Shown: positions 16,764 through 60,837 of the stretch, one piece after another
Numbering within the stretch: position 1 is the stretch's first letter
Layout: the number at the start of each line of letters is the position of its first letter
Source: Desulfobotulus mexicanus
GTDB taxonomy: Bacteria; Desulfobacterota; Desulfobacteria; Desulfobacterales; ASO4-4
NCBI RefSeq assembly: GCF_006175995.1
Contig: NZ_VDMB01000005.1
Coordinates: forward strand, 35,296 to 99,295
DNA: 64,000 nucleotides
Reading direction: 5' to 3'
The notes under the pieces: model-generated
What the model was told of the DNA's origin: nothing
The model's database searches: none
The model's input: the letters and a program-made list of their open reading frames with translations, nothing else
Program-made: the position numbers and the translations under genes

Positions 16764-16871
16764 GTTCCCTTTGCTTTCCTGTCATAAAAAAACAGAACAG
16801 CCATTTGCAGGAACCAAGCTTATAGATACAAAGCCAACAGCACAACCACAGGGCAGCATTTTTATTTTCTT

Positions 16872-17219
16872 GTAACGGTTCAGCACAATTTTTTAACTAC
16901 CATACCTTCCAGATAGATGCACAGGCACACAGGCTATTTGCCTGTGACGCAATCTTATTCGGGAGCTTCTTGCCCTGTGCGGAAGCGGCAAAAACTCCCC
17001 GCCACAGGCAGGATAAGCTTTTTGATTACCATAGCAGGCCTTGGTACGCTGCCTTTGTGGCGGCTCAGACAGTTTGCCGCTTCTTTCGCACAGGCCTTCG
17101 AATCTCTGATCCGAAACGATTGCAATGTCACTTGCAAATAGCCAAAGTGCCTTGCAACAGTACGAAGCTGCTGCAATTGCAGCATTGGAATTTCAAAATA
17201 AACTATTTTGAACAACTAC
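16872..17219. mobile_element. 348-bp MITE-like element, copy A
   Basis: One of four equal-length copies. The left end is GTAACGGTTCAGCAC and the right end ends in GTTCAAAATAG.. on the reverse strand (reads GTAGTTGTTC), so its right terminus has drifted. Flanking octamers ATTTTCTT and ATTTTTTT agree in seven of eight, consistent with an 8-bp target duplication. The interior is a long imperfect palindrome with paired blocks CCTGTGCGGAAGCGGCAAA and TTTGCCGC..CGCACAGG. It has no credible gene. It fills most of the 546-bp gap between the MscS-family gene and the DHH gene. Confidence 0.85.
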
Positions 17220-44124: not shown

Positions 44125-44472
44125 GTAATTATTCATCACTATTTTCTAAAGACCACATCTGTCACGCAGTTGCATAGGCACCCAGGCTATTTGCCTGTGA
44201 CGCAATCTTATTCGGAAGCTTTTTGCCCTGTGCGGAACCGGCAAAAACTCGCCGCCACAGGCAGGAGGCGCTTTTTGATTACCATGGCAGGCTTCAGCAC
44301 GCTGCCTTTGTGGCGGCTCAGACAGTTTGCCGCTTCTTTCGCACAGGTCTGCAAAGCTCTGATCCGAAACGATTGCAATGTCACTTGCAAATAGCCACGG
44401 AGCCTTGCAACAGTACGAAGCTGCTGCAATTACAGCATTGACAGTTCAGATTAAACTGTGCTGAATAATTAC
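44125..44472. mobile_element. 348-bp MITE-like element, copy B
   Basis: Left end GTAATTATTCATCAC, right end GTGCTGAATAATTAC (inverse GTAATTATTCAGCAC): 14 of 15 match. The interior is aligned along its full length with copies A and D in the same orientation. The flanking octamers CTGGTTCC and CTTCGTAT do not match, so the target duplication is lost or never formed. Occupies most of the 394-bp gap before the FAD-oxidoreductase gene end. Confidence 0.87.
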
Positions 44473-44492
44473 CTTCGTATTTTATTCAGCAC

Positions 44493-49325: not shown

Positions 49326-49338
49326 TTCCTTAAAAAGA

Positions 49339-49685
49339 GTAATTATTCAGCACAGTTTATTCCGAACTGCCAATGCTGTAATTGCAGCAGCTTCGTATGC
49401 TGCAAGGCTCCGTGGCTATTTGCAAGTGACGTTGCAATCGTTTCGGATCAGAGCTTTGAAGGCCTGTGCGAAAGAAGCGGCAAACTGTCTGAGCCGCCAC
49501 AGAGTCAGCGTGCTTAAAGCCTGCCATGGTAATCAAAAAGTTTATCCTGACTGTGGCGGCGAGTTTTTGCCGCTTCCGCACAGGGCAAGAAGCTCCCGAA
49601 TAAGATTGCGTCACGGGCAAATAGCTTGGGGCCTGCGCATATGTCTTACAGCTATGGTATTTGTAAAACGATACTGAATAATTTC
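49339..49685. mobile_element. 347-bp MITE-like element, copy C (inverted)
   Basis: The reverse complement of the other copies. Left end GTAATTATTCAGCAC; the right end reads GAAATTATTCAGTATC on the reverse strand. Flanked by TAAAAAGA and TAAAAAGG, seven of eight matching, an 8-bp target duplication. Lies between hsp20 and kamA; no gene inside. Confidence 0.88.
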
Positions 49686-51844: not shown

Positions 51845-52192
51845 GTAATTGTTCAGCACAATTTTCCAAGTACCATAGCTGCCAGACAGATGCACAGGTA
51901 CCCAGGCTATTTGCCTGTGACGCAATCTTTTTCGGGAGCTTCTTGCCCTCTGCGGAAGCGGCAAAAACTCCCCGCCACAGGCAGAATGCGCTTTTTTATT
52001 ACCATAGCAGGCCTTAGTACGCTGCCTTTGTGGCGGCTCAGACAGTTTGCCGCTTCTTTCGCACAGGCCTGCAAAGCTCTGATCCGAAACGATTGCAACG
52101 TCACATGCAAACAGTCAGGGTGCCTTGCAACAGTACGAAGCTGCTGCAATTGCAGCATTGGAATTTCAGAATAAATAGTGCTGAACAGTTAC
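51845..52192. mobile_element. 348-bp MITE-like element, copy D, with perfect 8-bp target duplication
   Basis: Termini GTAATTGTTCAGCAC and GTGCTGAACAGTTAC match 14 of 15 as inverted repeats. GAAGTTGC occurs immediately on both sides (51837-51844 and 52193-52200), a perfect 8-bp duplication. This copy defines the ends of the family. It fills most of the dapF to nucleoside phosphorylase gap. Confidence 0.93.
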
Positions 52193-54396: not shown

Positions 54397-54461
54397 GGCA
54401 CACAGGTCGTTTGATCGTGACGAAAACGATTGAAATGTCACTTACAAACAGCCTGTGTACC
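54397..54461. repeat. 65-bp foldback, arms shared with the 348-bp element
   Basis: GGCACACAGGTCGTTTGATCGTGAC pairs with the right arm GTCAC..CAAAC.GCCTGTGTACC. The arms match the GGCACACAGGCTATTTG..GTGAC segment of the long copies, but the core and the GTAA ends are absent. The rest of this 369-bp gap is AT-rich and ends in the leader shared by the two kinase genes. Confidence 0.7.
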
Positions 54462-54754
54462 TTATGCTCCACCTGCAAGGGATCAAGGGCTTGAATAAAT
54501 TGATAAAAAATGAAATGTTTGATATTCGCCACAAAATGCACTGAACGATTATAAAATAACAGTCGTAACTATTCATATCCGGCTTGTCCTCAGAATTCCT
54601 TGATTTTTTTATCCTCCCAAGATAATTTTATTTGGTTACGCTAAAATACAAGAAACTTCTCCCTGCTCAATTTTCTGCTGCTGTGGTCAAAAAGAGCCCT
54701 CCATTTTTCTCTGACCAAACCAGCCTCGCCCCCTAAAGATTCCGGAGGTTTTTT

Positions 54755-56560
54755 ATGTTACCCTCCCTGACATCAAAAAATATAAACCAGCGGGAAAGAA
54801 GCCTTGAAGCAAAGGCTTTTTTATCCTTTTTCAATGAGAAGATTCTGCCAAGCCGGCGTATGGCCGTGGCCTTCAGCATCTTTTTTTATGGGATTTCCGG
54901 TTTTCTGGATGCGGCCCTTCTGGAAAAAAGAGAATTGTATATTATCCTTTCCATCCGATACCTTGTCGTTATTCCTCTGGCTTTTCTGGCCCTCGGTTTA
55001 AGTTTTAAAGTAAAATGGGTGCAGCGTCATTTTGAACCCATTGTTTCATTTCTTCTTTATCTCTGTGCCCTGAGTATGATTCTCATGGTGGTCTTTGTGG
55101 AGAATGTCCATGTCTTGTCCCTGTACATGTTTGGTATTCTGCTGGTTATTTTTGTGGGATACAGCTTGCAACGGCTCTTTTTTTTCTGGGCGAGTATTAC
55201 GGGTGCTCTGATTCTTATTTCCTTTGTTGCTGCCACGCCCTGGATGTCCATGGAAAAAAACCATGTGACGACCTATGCCCTTCAGCTTTTCTGCGGGTAT
55301 GTGGCCAGCATCATTGGTGCCTATTTCATGGAATCTGTATCTTACAGTGAGTATCTTTCCCGGAAAGAAACGGAAGCACAGCGGATAAAGGTGGATGAGC
55401 TGAATGCGGGTCTTGAATTACGGGTAGAGGAAAGAACCAGAATTTATAATGAAAAAGCCAAAGAAGCCGAAAGGCTTCTGGAGCAGCAGCAGGTGGTGGA
55501 AAGAACCCTGCGCATGACGGAAAAACAGCACAGAGATCTTTTGGAAATAGTTGAAGATGCCTGCTTTGAACTGGATCTTGAAGGCCGGATTCAGTATTTC
55601 AACACGGCCCTCTGCCGCATTACCGGAAGACCCTCTTCTGAAATCAGGGCCAACCGGTTTTTCTTCTGGCTGAATGTAGATGATGCAACACTTCTCAGAA
55701 AACAGATGGAAAGCAAAGCCCATGTTGGCGGTACAGCCATTCTTTCACTGGACCTGCAGAAACCCGATGAGGATATTGTGTCTGTGCGGCTGAGCCTTTC
55801 TCCCATAGAAGATGGGCAGAGCCGTATTTCAGGATTTCGCTGTGTGGCCAGGGATACCAGTCGTGAGGTCAGGCTTAAAACAGAACTGAATACGGCCCGG
55901 CAGAATCAGAATCTTTCGGAAAATCAGCACTTAAAATTTCTTCGTCACATGGCCCACAGCCTGAGAACTCCCATGAATGCCATACTGGGTGGCCTGCACC
56001 TGCTTAAAGAGAACGGAGCTTCCCTGGTCCTGGGAGAAGCATCAGAACATATGCAGGGAGTTCTTGAGGATATTCAGGACTATATACAGCTGGCCGAAGG
56101 ACAGGGGCAAGCCAGACCTGTGGAAGAAAAAAGCAAGGTCCAAAGGCTCTCTCAGGAAGAGCGGAATGAAAAAATGTATCCCCTTATTCTTCTGGTGGAA
56201 GATAATATCATCAACCAGAAAATCACCATGAAACTTCTTGAAATAAAGAAATATACCCCTGACCTTGCGGAGAATGGCTTTCAGGCGCTGGAAAAACTTG
56301 AAAAGCAGAGCTATAATTTGGTCTTGATGGATGTACAGATGCCGGAAATGGACGGACTCACAGCCACCCGCAAAATCCGGGAAGGCCTTTGCGGAAAAGA
56401 GGCAGCCCTTACTCCCATTGTGGCCTTTACCGCCCACGCTTCTTCCCAGGACAGACAGGCCTGTCTGGATGCCGGAATGGATGATGTGCTGACTAAGCCG
56501 GCCAGGCCCGAGGGTCTGCAGAGCATGGTGGAAAAATGGCTAAGGCGGAAAGAATCATAA
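54755..56560 (+). CDS. hybrid histidine kinase paralogue lacking the ATPase domain
   Basis: 601 residues. Six or so membrane helices (35-200), a coiled coil (205-260), a PAS domain (about 262-380), then the dimerisation/H-box helix RHMAHSLRTPMNA (His intact). From QLAEGQ it jumps straight to ARPVEEK and the receiver domain (LVEDN, phosphoacceptor in LMDVQMPEMDG). The downstream paralogue has 158 more residues here, the complete HATPase domain. It therefore cannot phosphorylate itself alone. GGAGG precedes the ATG. Confidence 0.9.
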   Translation: MLPSLTSKNINQRERSLEAKAFLSFFNEKILPSRRMAVAFSIFFYGISGFLDAALLEKRELYIILSIRYLVVIPLAFLALGLSFKVKWVQRHFEPIVSFLLYLCALSMILMVVFVENVHVLSLYMFGILLVIFVGYSLQRLFFFWASITGALILISFVAATPWMSMEKNHVTTYALQLFCGYVASIIGAYFMESVSYSEYLSRKETEAQRIKVDELNAGLELRVEERTRIYNEKAKEAERLLEQQQVVERTLRMTEKQHRDLLEIVEDACFELDLEGRIQYFNTALCRITGRPSSEIRANRFFFWLNVDDATLLRKQMESKAHVGGTAILSLDLQKPDEDIVSVRLSLSPIEDGQSRISGFRCVARDTSREVRLKTELNTARQNQNLSENQHLKFLRHMAHSLRTPMNAILGGLHLLKENGASLVLGEASEHMQGVLEDIQDYIQLAEGQGQARPVEEKSKVQRLSQEERNEKMYPLILLVEDNIINQKITMKLLEIKKYTPDLAENGFQALEKLEKQSYNLVLMDVQMPEMDGLTATRKIREGLCGKEAALTPIVAFTAHASSQDRQACLDAGMDDVLTKPARPEGLQSMVEKWLRRKES

Positions 56561-56573
56561 AATTAAGGAATCT

Positions 56574-56637
56574 AAGGTAAATATCAGAAATGGATGCTTG
56601 TGACCTGGGGAGATGCCAAGAGAGATCTTATTCTTAT
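56574..56637 (+). pseudogene. 5' stub of the adenine deaminase gene
   Basis: The sequence after the first kinase gene aligns with the first 65 bp of ade at 59116 (GAATGGATG, GGGGAGATG, GATCTT landmarks). The ade ATG is AAG here. It marks the breakpoint of the tandem duplication. Confidence 0.8.
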
Positions 56638-56822
56638 AAGCGATCATCCTGATTTATCTTCAGAATTCCTTGATTTTTTTACCCTTTCAAGATAAATTTA
56701 TAATGTTGTACTGAAATACAAGAAACTTCTCCCTGCTCACGCTCTGCTGCTGTGGTCAAAAAGAAACCTCCATTTTTCTCTGGCCAAAACAGCCCTGCCC
56801 CTAAAGATTCCGGAGGTTTTTT

Positions 56823-59102
56823 GTGATCCCCTCCCTGACTTCAAAAAACGTAAGCCAGCAGGATAAATGCCTTGAAGCAAGGGCTTTTTTATCCTTTTTC
56901 AATGAAAAGGTTCTGCCTGCCCGGCGCATGGGTATTGCCTTTGGCATCTTTTTTTACGGAATCTTCGGTCTCCTTGATGTTGCACTTCTGGAAAAAAAAG
57001 AACTCTTCATTATCCTTTCCATCCGTTATCTTCTTATTCTTCCTCTGGCTTTTCTGGTTCTTGGCTGCAGTTTCAGAGTAAAATGGGTGCAGCGTCATTT
57101 TGAACCCATCGTTGCTTTCCTTATTTTTCTTTGCTCCCTGAGCATGATCCTAATGGTAACCCTTGCCCATGATGCCCATGGCTTATCCCATTATATGTTC
57201 GGTGTTCTGCTGGTCATTTTTGTGGGATACAGCCTGTTCCGGCTATTTTTCTTCTGGGCAGGCATTACGGGTGCTCTTATTATTATTGCTTTTTTGCTTT
57301 CCACGCCATGGCTGCCCATGGAAAAGACCCTGGTGATTGCCTATGCCCTTCAACTTTTCTGCGGGTATGTTGGCAGCATGATCGGTGCCTATGTCATGGA
57401 GACGGCATCCTACAGGGATTATCTTTCCAACATGGAGATGGAAGCACAGCGGAAAAAAGTGGATGGCCTGAATGCGGATCTGGAATTACGGGTAGAGGAA
57501 AGAACCAGAATTTATAATGAAAAAGCCAGAGAAGCCGAGAGGCTTCTGGAGCAGCAGCAGCTAATCGAAAGAACCCTGCGCATGACTGAAAAACAGCACA
57601 GGGACCTTTTGGAGATAGTTGAGGATGCCTGCTTTGAACTGGATCTTGAAGGCCGGATCCAGTATTTTAACACGGCTCTATGCCGTATTACCGGAAGGCA
57701 CCCTTCTGAAATCAGGGCCAATCGTTTTTTCTGCTGGCTGAATGTGGATGATGCCACACTTCTCAGAAAACAGATGGAAAGCAAAGCCCATGTTGGCGGT
57801 ACAGCCATTCTTTCCCTGGACCTGCAAAAACCCGATGAGGATATTGTGTCTGTGCGACTGAGCCTTTCTCCCAGAGAAGACGGACAGAGCCGTATTTCAG
57901 GATTCCGCTGTGTGGCCAGAGATACAAGTCGTGAGGTCAGGCTTAAAACGGAATTGAATACAGCCCGTCAGAACCAGAATCTTTCGGACAGTCACCACTT
58001 AAAGTTCCTTCGTCATATGACCCACAGCCTTAGAACCCCTATGAATGCCATACTGGGTGGACTGCACCTGCTTACTGAAAAGACAGAGGCATCCGTAACT
58101 CTTGGGGAAGCATCGGGGCGTATGCAGGGCGTTCTGGAGGATATTCAAGACTATATACAGCTGGCCGAAGGGCAGTGGGTTTCCCAGGAGGATATTTTTT
58201 CACCTAAGGAAGCAGGTTCTGAAATTTGTGCATCCTACAGTGTCTGGGCAGAAAACCGGGGCCTTGAATTTCATTTTGAAACACGCAACCTGCCGGATTT
58301 TCTACAGGGGGATGTCCGTTTTTTTAAGCGGATTCTCAATAAATTTCTGGATAATGCCCTTAGGTTTACAGAAAAAGGCTCCATAGATGTTTTTCTGGGA
58401 TGCAGAAACATAGCAGACATGCTCTGGCTTGTCATGGAGGTAGCGGATACGGGCTGCGGTATGGATGAAGTAAAAATAGCACATGCCTTTGAAGCCCCCC
58501 ACAGCATGAAGGGTGGAGAAGAGAATCAGAGTACCATGGGGCTGGGGCTGGCCTTTATCCATCTGATGACGGAACAACTGGAAGGAAATCTGCGTATCCG
58601 GAGTCTTCCGGAAAAAGGAACACGGATCATCTGTGAAATTCCCGTCAGAGAGGTCAGGCCTGTGGAAGAAAAAAACAAGGGGCAAAGGCAGTTTCAGGCA
58701 GAACAGAATAAAAGAAAGCAGCCCCTCATTCTTCTGGTGGAAGACAATATCATCAATCAGAAGATAACCATGAAACTTCTTGAAATAAACGAATATACTC
58801 CTGATCTTGCCGAAAATGGCATTGAAGCGCTGGAAAAACTTAAAAAGCAGAGCTATGATCTGATTCTGATGGATGTACAGATGCCGGAGATGGACGGACT
58901 CACAGCCACCCGCAAAATCCGGGAAGGTCTTTGCGGAAAAGAGGCGGCCCTTACTCCCATTGTGGCCTTTACCGCCCACGCTTCTCCCCAGGACAGGCAG
59001 GCCTGTCTGGATGCCGGAATGGATGATGTACTGACCAAGCCGGCCAGGCCTGAGGCTCTTCAGGCCATGGTGGAAAAATGGATAAGGCAGAAAGAATTAT
59101 AA
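56823..59102 (+). CDS. complete hybrid histidine kinase
   Basis: 759 residues. Same order as the upstream paralogue but complete: membrane helices, coiled coil, PAS, H-box RHMTHSLRTPMNA, ATPase domain (KFLDNALRFTEKG N-box, VADTGCGMD G1, MGLGLAFIHLM G2) and C-terminal receiver (LMDVQMPEMDG). Starts with GTG, preceded by GGAGG. 13 bp before ade, so likely cotranscribed with it. Confidence 0.93.
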   Translation: MIPSLTSKNVSQQDKCLEARAFLSFFNEKVLPARRMGIAFGIFFYGIFGLLDVALLEKKELFIILSIRYLLILPLAFLVLGCSFRVKWVQRHFEPIVAFLIFLCSLSMILMVTLAHDAHGLSHYMFGVLLVIFVGYSLFRLFFFWAGITGALIIIAFLLSTPWLPMEKTLVIAYALQLFCGYVGSMIGAYVMETASYRDYLSNMEMEAQRKKVDGLNADLELRVEERTRIYNEKAREAERLLEQQQLIERTLRMTEKQHRDLLEIVEDACFELDLEGRIQYFNTALCRITGRHPSEIRANRFFCWLNVDDATLLRKQMESKAHVGGTAILSLDLQKPDEDIVSVRLSLSPREDGQSRISGFRCVARDTSREVRLKTELNTARQNQNLSDSHHLKFLRHMTHSLRTPMNAILGGLHLLTEKTEASVTLGEASGRMQGVLEDIQDYIQLAEGQWVSQEDIFSPKEAGSEICASYSVWAENRGLEFHFETRNLPDFLQGDVRFFKRILNKFLDNALRFTEKGSIDVFLGCRNIADMLWLVMEVADTGCGMDEVKIAHAFEAPHSMKGGEENQSTMGLGLAFIHLMTEQLEGNLRIRSLPEKGTRIICEIPVREVRPVEEKNKGQRQFQAEQNKRKQPLILLVEDNIINQKITMKLLEINEYTPDLAENGIEALEKLKKQSYDLILMDVQMPEMDGLTATRKIREGLCGKEAALTPIVAFTAHASPQDRQACLDAGMDDVLTKPARPEALQAMVEKWIRQKEL

Positions 59103-59115
59103 AAAGGCGGAATTT

Positions 59116-60837
59116 ATGGAAAAATATAAGGAATGGATGAGTGTGGCCCGGGGAGATGTCCCGGCGGATCTTCTTTTTACAGGGGCCAGGATCATCAATG
59201 TTTATACGGGAGAGATCCTTGAAACATCCCTTGCCATTCATCAGGGGCGTTTTGTTGGATTCGGGGATTATGAGGCCATCAACACCATTGAACTGGGGGG
59301 ACGCCATATAGCCCCCGGCTTTATAGATGCCCACGTTCACCTTGAAAGCAGCATGGCCTCACCTTCGGAATTTGTGAAAGCAGTACTCCCCAGAGGCACC
59401 ACAACGGTGGCCGCAGATCCCCATGAAATTGCCAATGTGCTGGGAAGTGAAGGTATACAGTACATGCTGAAAGCCAGTGAAAATCAGCCCATGGACCTGT
59501 TTTTCACCCTGCCATCCTGTGTTCCTGCCACCCATATGGAAACTGCAGGGGCCAGTTTGCAGGCATCTGATCTGGCTCCTTTTTTTTATCATCCCCGTAT
59601 CCTGGCTCTGGCTGAAATGATGAATTTCCCCGGTGTTATTTTAGGGGATAAAGGAGTGCATGACAAAATCAGAGATGCTCACAGGAGATCAAAGCCTGTG
59701 GATGGTCATGCTCCGGGACTTTCCGGTAAAGCTCTGAACGCCTACCTTTCTGCGGGTATTTCTTCGGATCATGAGTGCACCACAGCGGAAGAAGCTCTGG
59801 AAAAAATGCGGGGCGGTATGCACATCATGGTACGGGAGGGCACCTGCGCCCAGAACCTTGATGCCCTGCTGCCAGCCCTGAATGAGCAGACGGCCCGGAG
59901 AATGATGTGGTGTACCGATGATCGCCATCCCCACGATCTTGTCCATGAAGGTCACATAGATGACATTATCCGCAGAGCCATTGCCGAAGGCATTGATCCT
60001 GTGATGGCCATACAGATGGGAACCCTTAATCCTGCGGAATATTTTTCACTTAAGGACAGGGGAGCCATAGCACCGGGAAAACGGGCGGATTTTGTAATCA
60101 TAGGGGATCTGGAAGCATTTCACATTGAAGCCGTGTACGTTCAGGGAAAGTGTGTGGCAGAAAAGGGCAGACTGGTTTCGGATCTGGTTTTACCAGACAC
60201 ACCGCCTCCTCCGGAATCCATGAAGATAAGACCCGAACAGCTGGATTTTTCCCTGAAGGCAGAAGCAGAAAACATTCGTGTCATTGATGTGGTTCCCGGG
60301 CAGGTGGTTACGGGCAGTCTTGTTATGGCTGCTGCCATTGAAAAGGGTATGGCTGTGGCAGATGCGGACAGGGATATTGTCAAGCTGGCCGTTGTGGAGC
60401 GGTATACGGGAAAGGCAGGGTGCGGTATTGCCTTTGTCCGTGGGCTGGGTATAAGGGACGGGGCGCTGGCCTCCAGTGTGGGGCATGACTCCCACAACCT
60501 TATTGTGGCCGGGGACAATGATGAGGATATGAAGGCAGTGGCAGAGGTTGTTATTGAAATGAAAGGAGGCATGGCTGTTGTCAGCAGAGGCCGTGTCATG
60601 GCATCCCTTCCCCTTGCCATTGCAGGACTGATGTCGACAGCCCCCATGGAAACCATTGAGACGGAGATGAATGCCCTTATCCGTGAGGCAAAGGTTCTGG
60701 GCTGCCCCCTTGCCGATCCCTTCATGACCCTGGGTTTTCTTTCCCTGCCCGTGATTCCTTCCCTGAAACTCACGGACAGGGGCCTTGTGGATGTGGATCG
60801 TTTTGAGCTGGTTTCTGTTTTTATTGATACCCTATAA
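59116..60837 (+). CDS. ade: adenine deaminase
   Basis: 573 residues. Metal site DAHVHLESS, central DGHAPG, SSDHECT and DDRHPHDL motifs, and the C-terminal region with GHDSHNLIVAGD. Converts adenine to hypoxanthine. With the phosphorylase and MTA deaminase it makes a purine salvage set. A strong terminator follows. Confidence 0.95.
   Translation: MEKYKEWMSVARGDVPADLLFTGARIINVYTGEILETSLAIHQGRFVGFGDYEAINTIELGGRHIAPGFIDAHVHLESSMASPSEFVKAVLPRGTTTVAADPHEIANVLGSEGIQYMLKASENQPMDLFFTLPSCVPATHMETAGASLQASDLAPFFYHPRILALAEMMNFPGVILGDKGVHDKIRDAHRRSKPVDGHAPGLSGKALNAYLSAGISSDHECTTAEEALEKMRGGMHIMVREGTCAQNLDALLPALNEQTARRMMWCTDDRHPHDLVHEGHIDDIIRRAIAEGIDPVMAIQMGTLNPAEYFSLKDRGAIAPGKRADFVIIGDLEAFHIEAVYVQGKCVAEKGRLVSDLVLPDTPPPPESMKIRPEQLDFSLKAEAENIRVIDVVPGQVVTGSLVMAAAIEKGMAVADADRDIVKLAVVERYTGKAGCGIAFVRGLGIRDGALASSVGHDSHNLIVAGDNDEDMKAVAEVVIEMKGGMAVVSRGRVMASLPLAIAGLMSTAPMETIETEMNALIREAKVLGCPLADPFMTLGFLSLPVIPSLKLTDRGLVDVDRFELVSVFIDTL

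Follow-up and report, generated by a model that had tools for sequence, protein, structure and literature searches.

By analogy, the nearest functional precedent for the gene pair described here is the ChrS pseudokinase of Corynebacterium glutamicum (ChrS_CA-fs), which is also a CA-less sensor kinase beside an intact paralogue (PMC9491836). In that system, signalling changed once the CA domain had been lost; the loss brought a growth advantage, which needed the DHp domain (PMC9491836). ChrS_CA-fs arose by a frameshift in laboratory evolution and apparently lost its phosphatase function (PMC9491836). By contrast, the deletion described here is natural, in-frame and domain-exact, affects a tandem hybrid kinase and is older than a species split. 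A second comparison is offered by CheA3/CheA4 of Rhodobacter sphaeroides, in which a phospho-accepting protein likewise lacks an ATPase domain and a partner gene supplies it (PMC3591291). CheA4, however, has no phospho-accepting domain, so that CheA3 and CheA4 are complementary, whereas the partner here is a complete kinase. More broadly, HisKA proteins without HATPase are already known as a minority class: they account for 1556 of the 42417 HisKA proteins in SMART (3.66%; PMC3591291) and have the same domain make-up as the gene that we call the short copy. Unlike in that class at large, the parent gene lies alongside here, making the relative time and the boundaries of the loss readable; the H-S box of the short copy also falls outside the HE/DxxN/T motif of the SMART survey (PMC3591291).

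The pair lies in a stretch of 64,000 nt from Desulfobotulus mexicanus, which we call the window. We compared it with two further species of the genus, the sister species (G001) and a third species (G002), using one genome per species. The features of the locus, in window coordinates, are:

54584-54754, plus strand: leader of the short copy with its ribosome-binding site (CCGGAGG), copied along with the gene (repeats D4 and D5) and similar in G001
54755-56560, plus strand: ORF of the short copy, 601 aa, start ATG (ORF, Pfam and codon analysis)
56102-56113, plus strand: deletion junction of the short copy, where DHp helix 2 ends; codons CAG / GGG CAA GCC (alignments)
56579-56640, plus strand: remnant of the ade 5' end, lying between the copies (repeat D7), 76% identical to 59122-59179
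56654-56822, plus strand: leader of the full copy, a repeat match to the short-copy leader
56823-59102, plus strand: ORF of the full hybrid histidine kinase (the full copy), 759 aa, start GTG (ORF and Pfam), with orthologues in G001 (88% identical) and G002 (63%)
58179-58649, plus strand: segment of the full copy absent from the short copy (residues 453-609), with HATPase_c at 58308-58649
59116-60837, plus strand: downstream adenine deaminase gene (ade; Pfam Adenine_deam_C and Amidohydro_1), whose start lies within the duplicated unit

The two proteins align from end to end at 82% amino acid identity, and their DNA match (blastn E = 0 over 1528 bp, about 15% divergence) is far beyond chance. 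The leaders are duplicated as well (54584-54753 versus 56654-56822, 80-85% identity), in line with the original prediction that the genes match from leader to stop. The repeat had been taken to end at the kinase stop; it actually extends about 60 bp into the start of ade (56579-56636 versus 59122-59179). The ade-start remnant between the copies is therefore a footprint of tandem duplication.

Pfam places PAS, HisKA and REC domains in both genes and HATPase_c in the full copy only (residues 496-609). The full copy, with its membrane region, PAS, HisKA with an H-S box, HATPase_c and REC, has the HisKA, HATPase_c and REC set of a hybrid histidine kinase, and the short copy does not. Rather, the short copy consists of about six membrane helices, a coil, PAS, DHp (HisKA, with the H-box at H401-S402) and a receiver, which corresponds to the phospho-accepting part of a split kinase without its ATPase domain. 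The earlier reading that the membrane, PAS, H-box and receiver parts remain in an open frame thus stands. The deletion itself is in-frame; it starts where DHp helix 2 ends and reaches the REC linker. It spans 157 codons (453-609 of the full copy), and a second gap of one codon in the DHp loop completes the 158-residue difference that had been ascribed to the ATPase domain. Nor was exactly that domain lost: HATPase_c is wholly gone, but the DHp-CA linker has gone with it. An AlphaFold model of the short copy (pLDDT 47) is informative for secondary structure only. Rfam gave no match in the 64,000-nt window, and a promoter/terminator scan gave no clear excess over shuffled sequence.

The window also contains a non-coding dispersed repeat of about 350 bp, at 16870-17219, 44125-44482, 49338-49669 (inverted) and 51845-52192, bounded by terminal inverted repeats (GTAATTGTTCAGCACA ... 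TGTGCTGAACAATTAC). This genome has at least 40 copies with 86-95% identity, and the repeat is present in G001 too, where the matching dapF-mtnP junction lacks the copy seen at 51845-52192. The repeat looks like a MITE-type element. A degraded fragment of it (80% over 40 nt to 52087-52126) lies at 54424-54463, between mtaD and the short copy.

The arrangement in the two other species places the deletion in time. In G002, a single full gene is flanked by mtaD and ade, as would be expected of the pre-duplication state. The sister species has the full gene adjoining ade, and upstream of it lies a short-copy remnant (L091 5922-6972) with the ATPase deletion and a junction of the same length as in the window. 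The junction reads GAA GGA CAG GGG CAA GCC AGA CCT in the window and GAA GGA CGA CCG CAA GCA GGG CCT in G001, the derived bases CAAGC being common to both short copies, and codons 284-313 contain sites that group short with short across species (paralogue-type). These sequences are most simply read as a single deletion that happened before the window's species and its sister parted; because the sister carries the same deletion, the loss is older than the split. Independent deletions in the two species were considered and rejected on account of the shared junction length and bases.

In G001 the ade remnant is longer (L091:6940-7330): additional weak matches extend about 500 bp into the gene. 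The ancestral unit of duplication therefore probably took in more of ade than is seen in the window. Among GTDB genome contigs we found no close relatives of the full kinase, only general hybrid kinases of about 30% identity, and a search across the order with PAS-DHp-REC from the short copy as query returned no second example outside the genus at E 1e-40.

In G001 the short copy is broken. Codons 1-252 are missing, with homology beginning at about codon 253; the codon for E267 is replaced by TAG; and a run of seven T causes a +1 frameshift at about codon 302. The G001 genome yielded no second copy of the membrane region. The G001 gene thus bears the lesions of a pseudogene, whereas the window's short copy has no frame-disrupting lesion. 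Because the sister lost this gene, the short copy is dispensable there. A 335-aa ORF (partial PAS-HisKA-REC) survives there, perhaps as a relic; that it is a soluble remnant is less likely. Its PAS-DHp part has a dN/dS of about 0.3, versus 0.09 in full copies. Synteny in G001 breaks at the 5' end of the remnant (L091:5775-5920, L129), with mtnP-mtaD on contig C5 and the kinase and ade on C3.

Codon analyses of the window's short copy point to selection that is purifying yet relaxed. In pairwise comparisons of short with full, w is 0.32 for the membrane region and 0.08 for PAS-DHp; between full copies the corresponding values are 0.14 and 0.07. In a free four-taxon codon model the short copy differs from the full copies (p = 0.002-0.004, over all shared codons and in the membrane region). 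Without a clock, the same model gives w = 0.61 for the membrane region and fails to separate it from w = 1 (p = 0.46) because the outgroup is saturated. As this estimate was not decisive, we added a same-genome clock: both copies sit in one genome, and equal time has therefore passed for each since the duplication. With this clock, the short branch has w values of 0.25-0.46 for the membrane region and 0.25-0.34 for the shared codons as a whole, compared with 0.14-0.18 for the full copies; w = 1 is rejected for the short branch (p = 6e-4 to 6e-18), and the short copy is relaxed relative to full copies (p = 0.0005-0.03). The changes concentrate in the membrane region, where 21 of the 112 invariant residues (those identical in the three full copies) are altered in the short copy, versus 6 of 246 in the coil, PAS, DHp, linker and REC.

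On these sequence comparisons, we say that the short copy in the window's species is retained but relaxed, and it fits the description of a histidine pseudokinase: the ATP-binding domain is missing, and the gene persists with an open frame and a dN/dS below 1 under the same-genome clock, though relaxed. The selection figures fall short of proving function, because the branch includes time before the deletion and because some parts of the ORF are renewed by conversion. The original prediction that the short copy may have been kept is supported in the window's species, where the deletion predates the split, the frame is open and dN/dS is below 1, but not in the sister, where the gene is broken. 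That prediction had named frameshifts or relaxed selection in sister strains as signs against it, and a dN/dS analysis as a check. These signs appeared in part. Lesions occurred in the sister only; the window's copy is unbroken, and its dN/dS lies below 1 under the same-genome clock, yet its selection is relaxed compared with the full copies.

Gene conversion complicates the comparison of the two copies. Across the receiver and in parts of PAS/DHp, almost every informative site groups by species and not by copy, and the two G001 receivers are 98% identical. On these site patterns, gene conversion has kept the receiver and parts of PAS/DHp alike. The high similarity of these domains within the pair is, because of this conversion, not by itself evidence of dimerisation co-evolution.

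Our main reading, to which we assign a probability of roughly 0.4, is that the short copy is an old tandem ATPase-less twin, retained under relaxed selection as a membrane pseudokinase that works as a phosphatase or phosphate sink. An unlikely but serious competitor is that it is a decaying duplicate, a slow pseudogene whose function was lost with the ATPase domain and whose frame is open by luck and by conversion erasing lesions. Such decay would fit the truncated sister gene with its TAG and frameshift, the relaxed selection, the conversion tracts over REC and parts of PAS/DHp, and the failure of the clock-free branch model to reject w = 1 in the membrane region. It sits poorly with the age of the deletion: because the deletion predates a split with dS of about 0.5, about 8 stops would be expected in the 601 codons under neutrality (t = 0.55), and none is seen (P ~2e-4), although in stretches without clear conversion the probability of no stop is only 0.02-0.06. 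Synonymous changes per site also clearly exceed non-synonymous ones throughout, and the 601 codons contain no frame-disrupting indel.

A clue to what an ATPase-less twin could do comes from the H-box (55952-55972 in the short copy, 58016-58037 in the full copy). It reads H-S-L/M-R-T-P in all copies, short and full, of the three species, with the Thr kept. At the position of the Ser, the other H-boxes in the collected loci carry E in 95 cases and D in one, and the short and full copies alike depart from the H-E/D-x-x-T/N pattern of hybrid kinases. In CrdS, HK853, HK1190 and HK4262, replacing the acidic H-box residue abolishes autokinase activity and leaves the phosphatase intact: CrdS E-to-A/D/Q/G and E-to-A variants of other HisKA kinases are kinase-dead and phosphatase-competent, and the Thr/Asn four residues past the phospho-His is needed for phosphatase activity (PMC3510030). 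The genes described here resemble CrdS E372A and similar variants (PMC3510030) in that the acidic residue beside the phospho-His is absent and the Thr/Asn is kept. Those variants are engineered mutants, however, whereas the Ser is natural in all copies of the genus. By this mutational precedent, weak autokinase activity is predicted even for the full copies, and a bias to phosphatase for the family. In tension with this prediction, the CA domain of the full copies is under strong constraint (w 0.13), an argument for the importance of ATP binding in the family despite the H-S box.

The H-box bears directly on a further alternative, trans-phosphorylation in a mixed dimer, in which the ATPase domain of the full copy would phosphorylate the His of the short copy in the manner of a split kinase. 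The His, DHp helices and receiver of the short copy are intact, its DHp and PAS are about 92% identical to those of the full copy, and CheA3/CheA4 and split EnvZ provide precedents (PMC3591291). We nevertheless consider this arrangement improbable. One reason is that no copy, full or short, has the acidic residue by the phospho-His that HisKA kinases need for autophosphorylation; another is that the sister lost the short copy but retained the full one. We favour a kinase-dead, phosphatase-type or decoy partner over trans-phosphorylation; the short copy probably works as a kinase-dead partner or phosphatase, not as a kinase. An assembly artefact, with the short copy as a collapsed or chimeric repeat, is hardly credible: short reads generally assemble similar tandem repeats poorly, but the copies differ by about 15% at the DNA level and the same deletion junction was found independently in the sister genome assembly.

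The sequence comparisons show the following history for the ATPase-less twin. A tandem duplication from the kinase leader into the ade start took place in an ancestor shared by the window's species and its sister, and the upstream copy then lost the DHp-CA linker and the ATPase domain in a single in-frame event. After the split, the short copy stayed open under purifying but relaxed selection in the window's species and decayed in the sister. Its product would be a membrane-bound pseudokinase that cannot use ATP, senses through a diverging membrane domain and, by its intact DHp, dimerises with itself or with the full copy. It may act as a phosphatase on phosphorylated receivers, the Thr of H-x-x-x-T being kept, or alternatively as a phosphate sink through its own receiver. 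In either case, the pathway of the full kinase would be damped or tuned. A more specific form of this proposal, which we regard as rather doubtful, is that of a natural tandem kinase/pseudokinase pair: out of an H-S family a dedicated membrane partner would have evolved, ATPase-less and phosphatase-type, and gene conversion in the DHp and receiver parts would keep it matched to its parent.

What is new here is a natural, domain-exact loss that can be dated relative to a species split, has its parent adjacent and has met opposite fates in sister species. The H-S box of the full copies poses a second question, namely how to understand a conserved ATPase domain without the residue thought necessary for autophosphorylation. 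Databases contain many ATPase-less HisKA proteins, and this pair provides a small, testable model for the origin of histidine pseudokinases.
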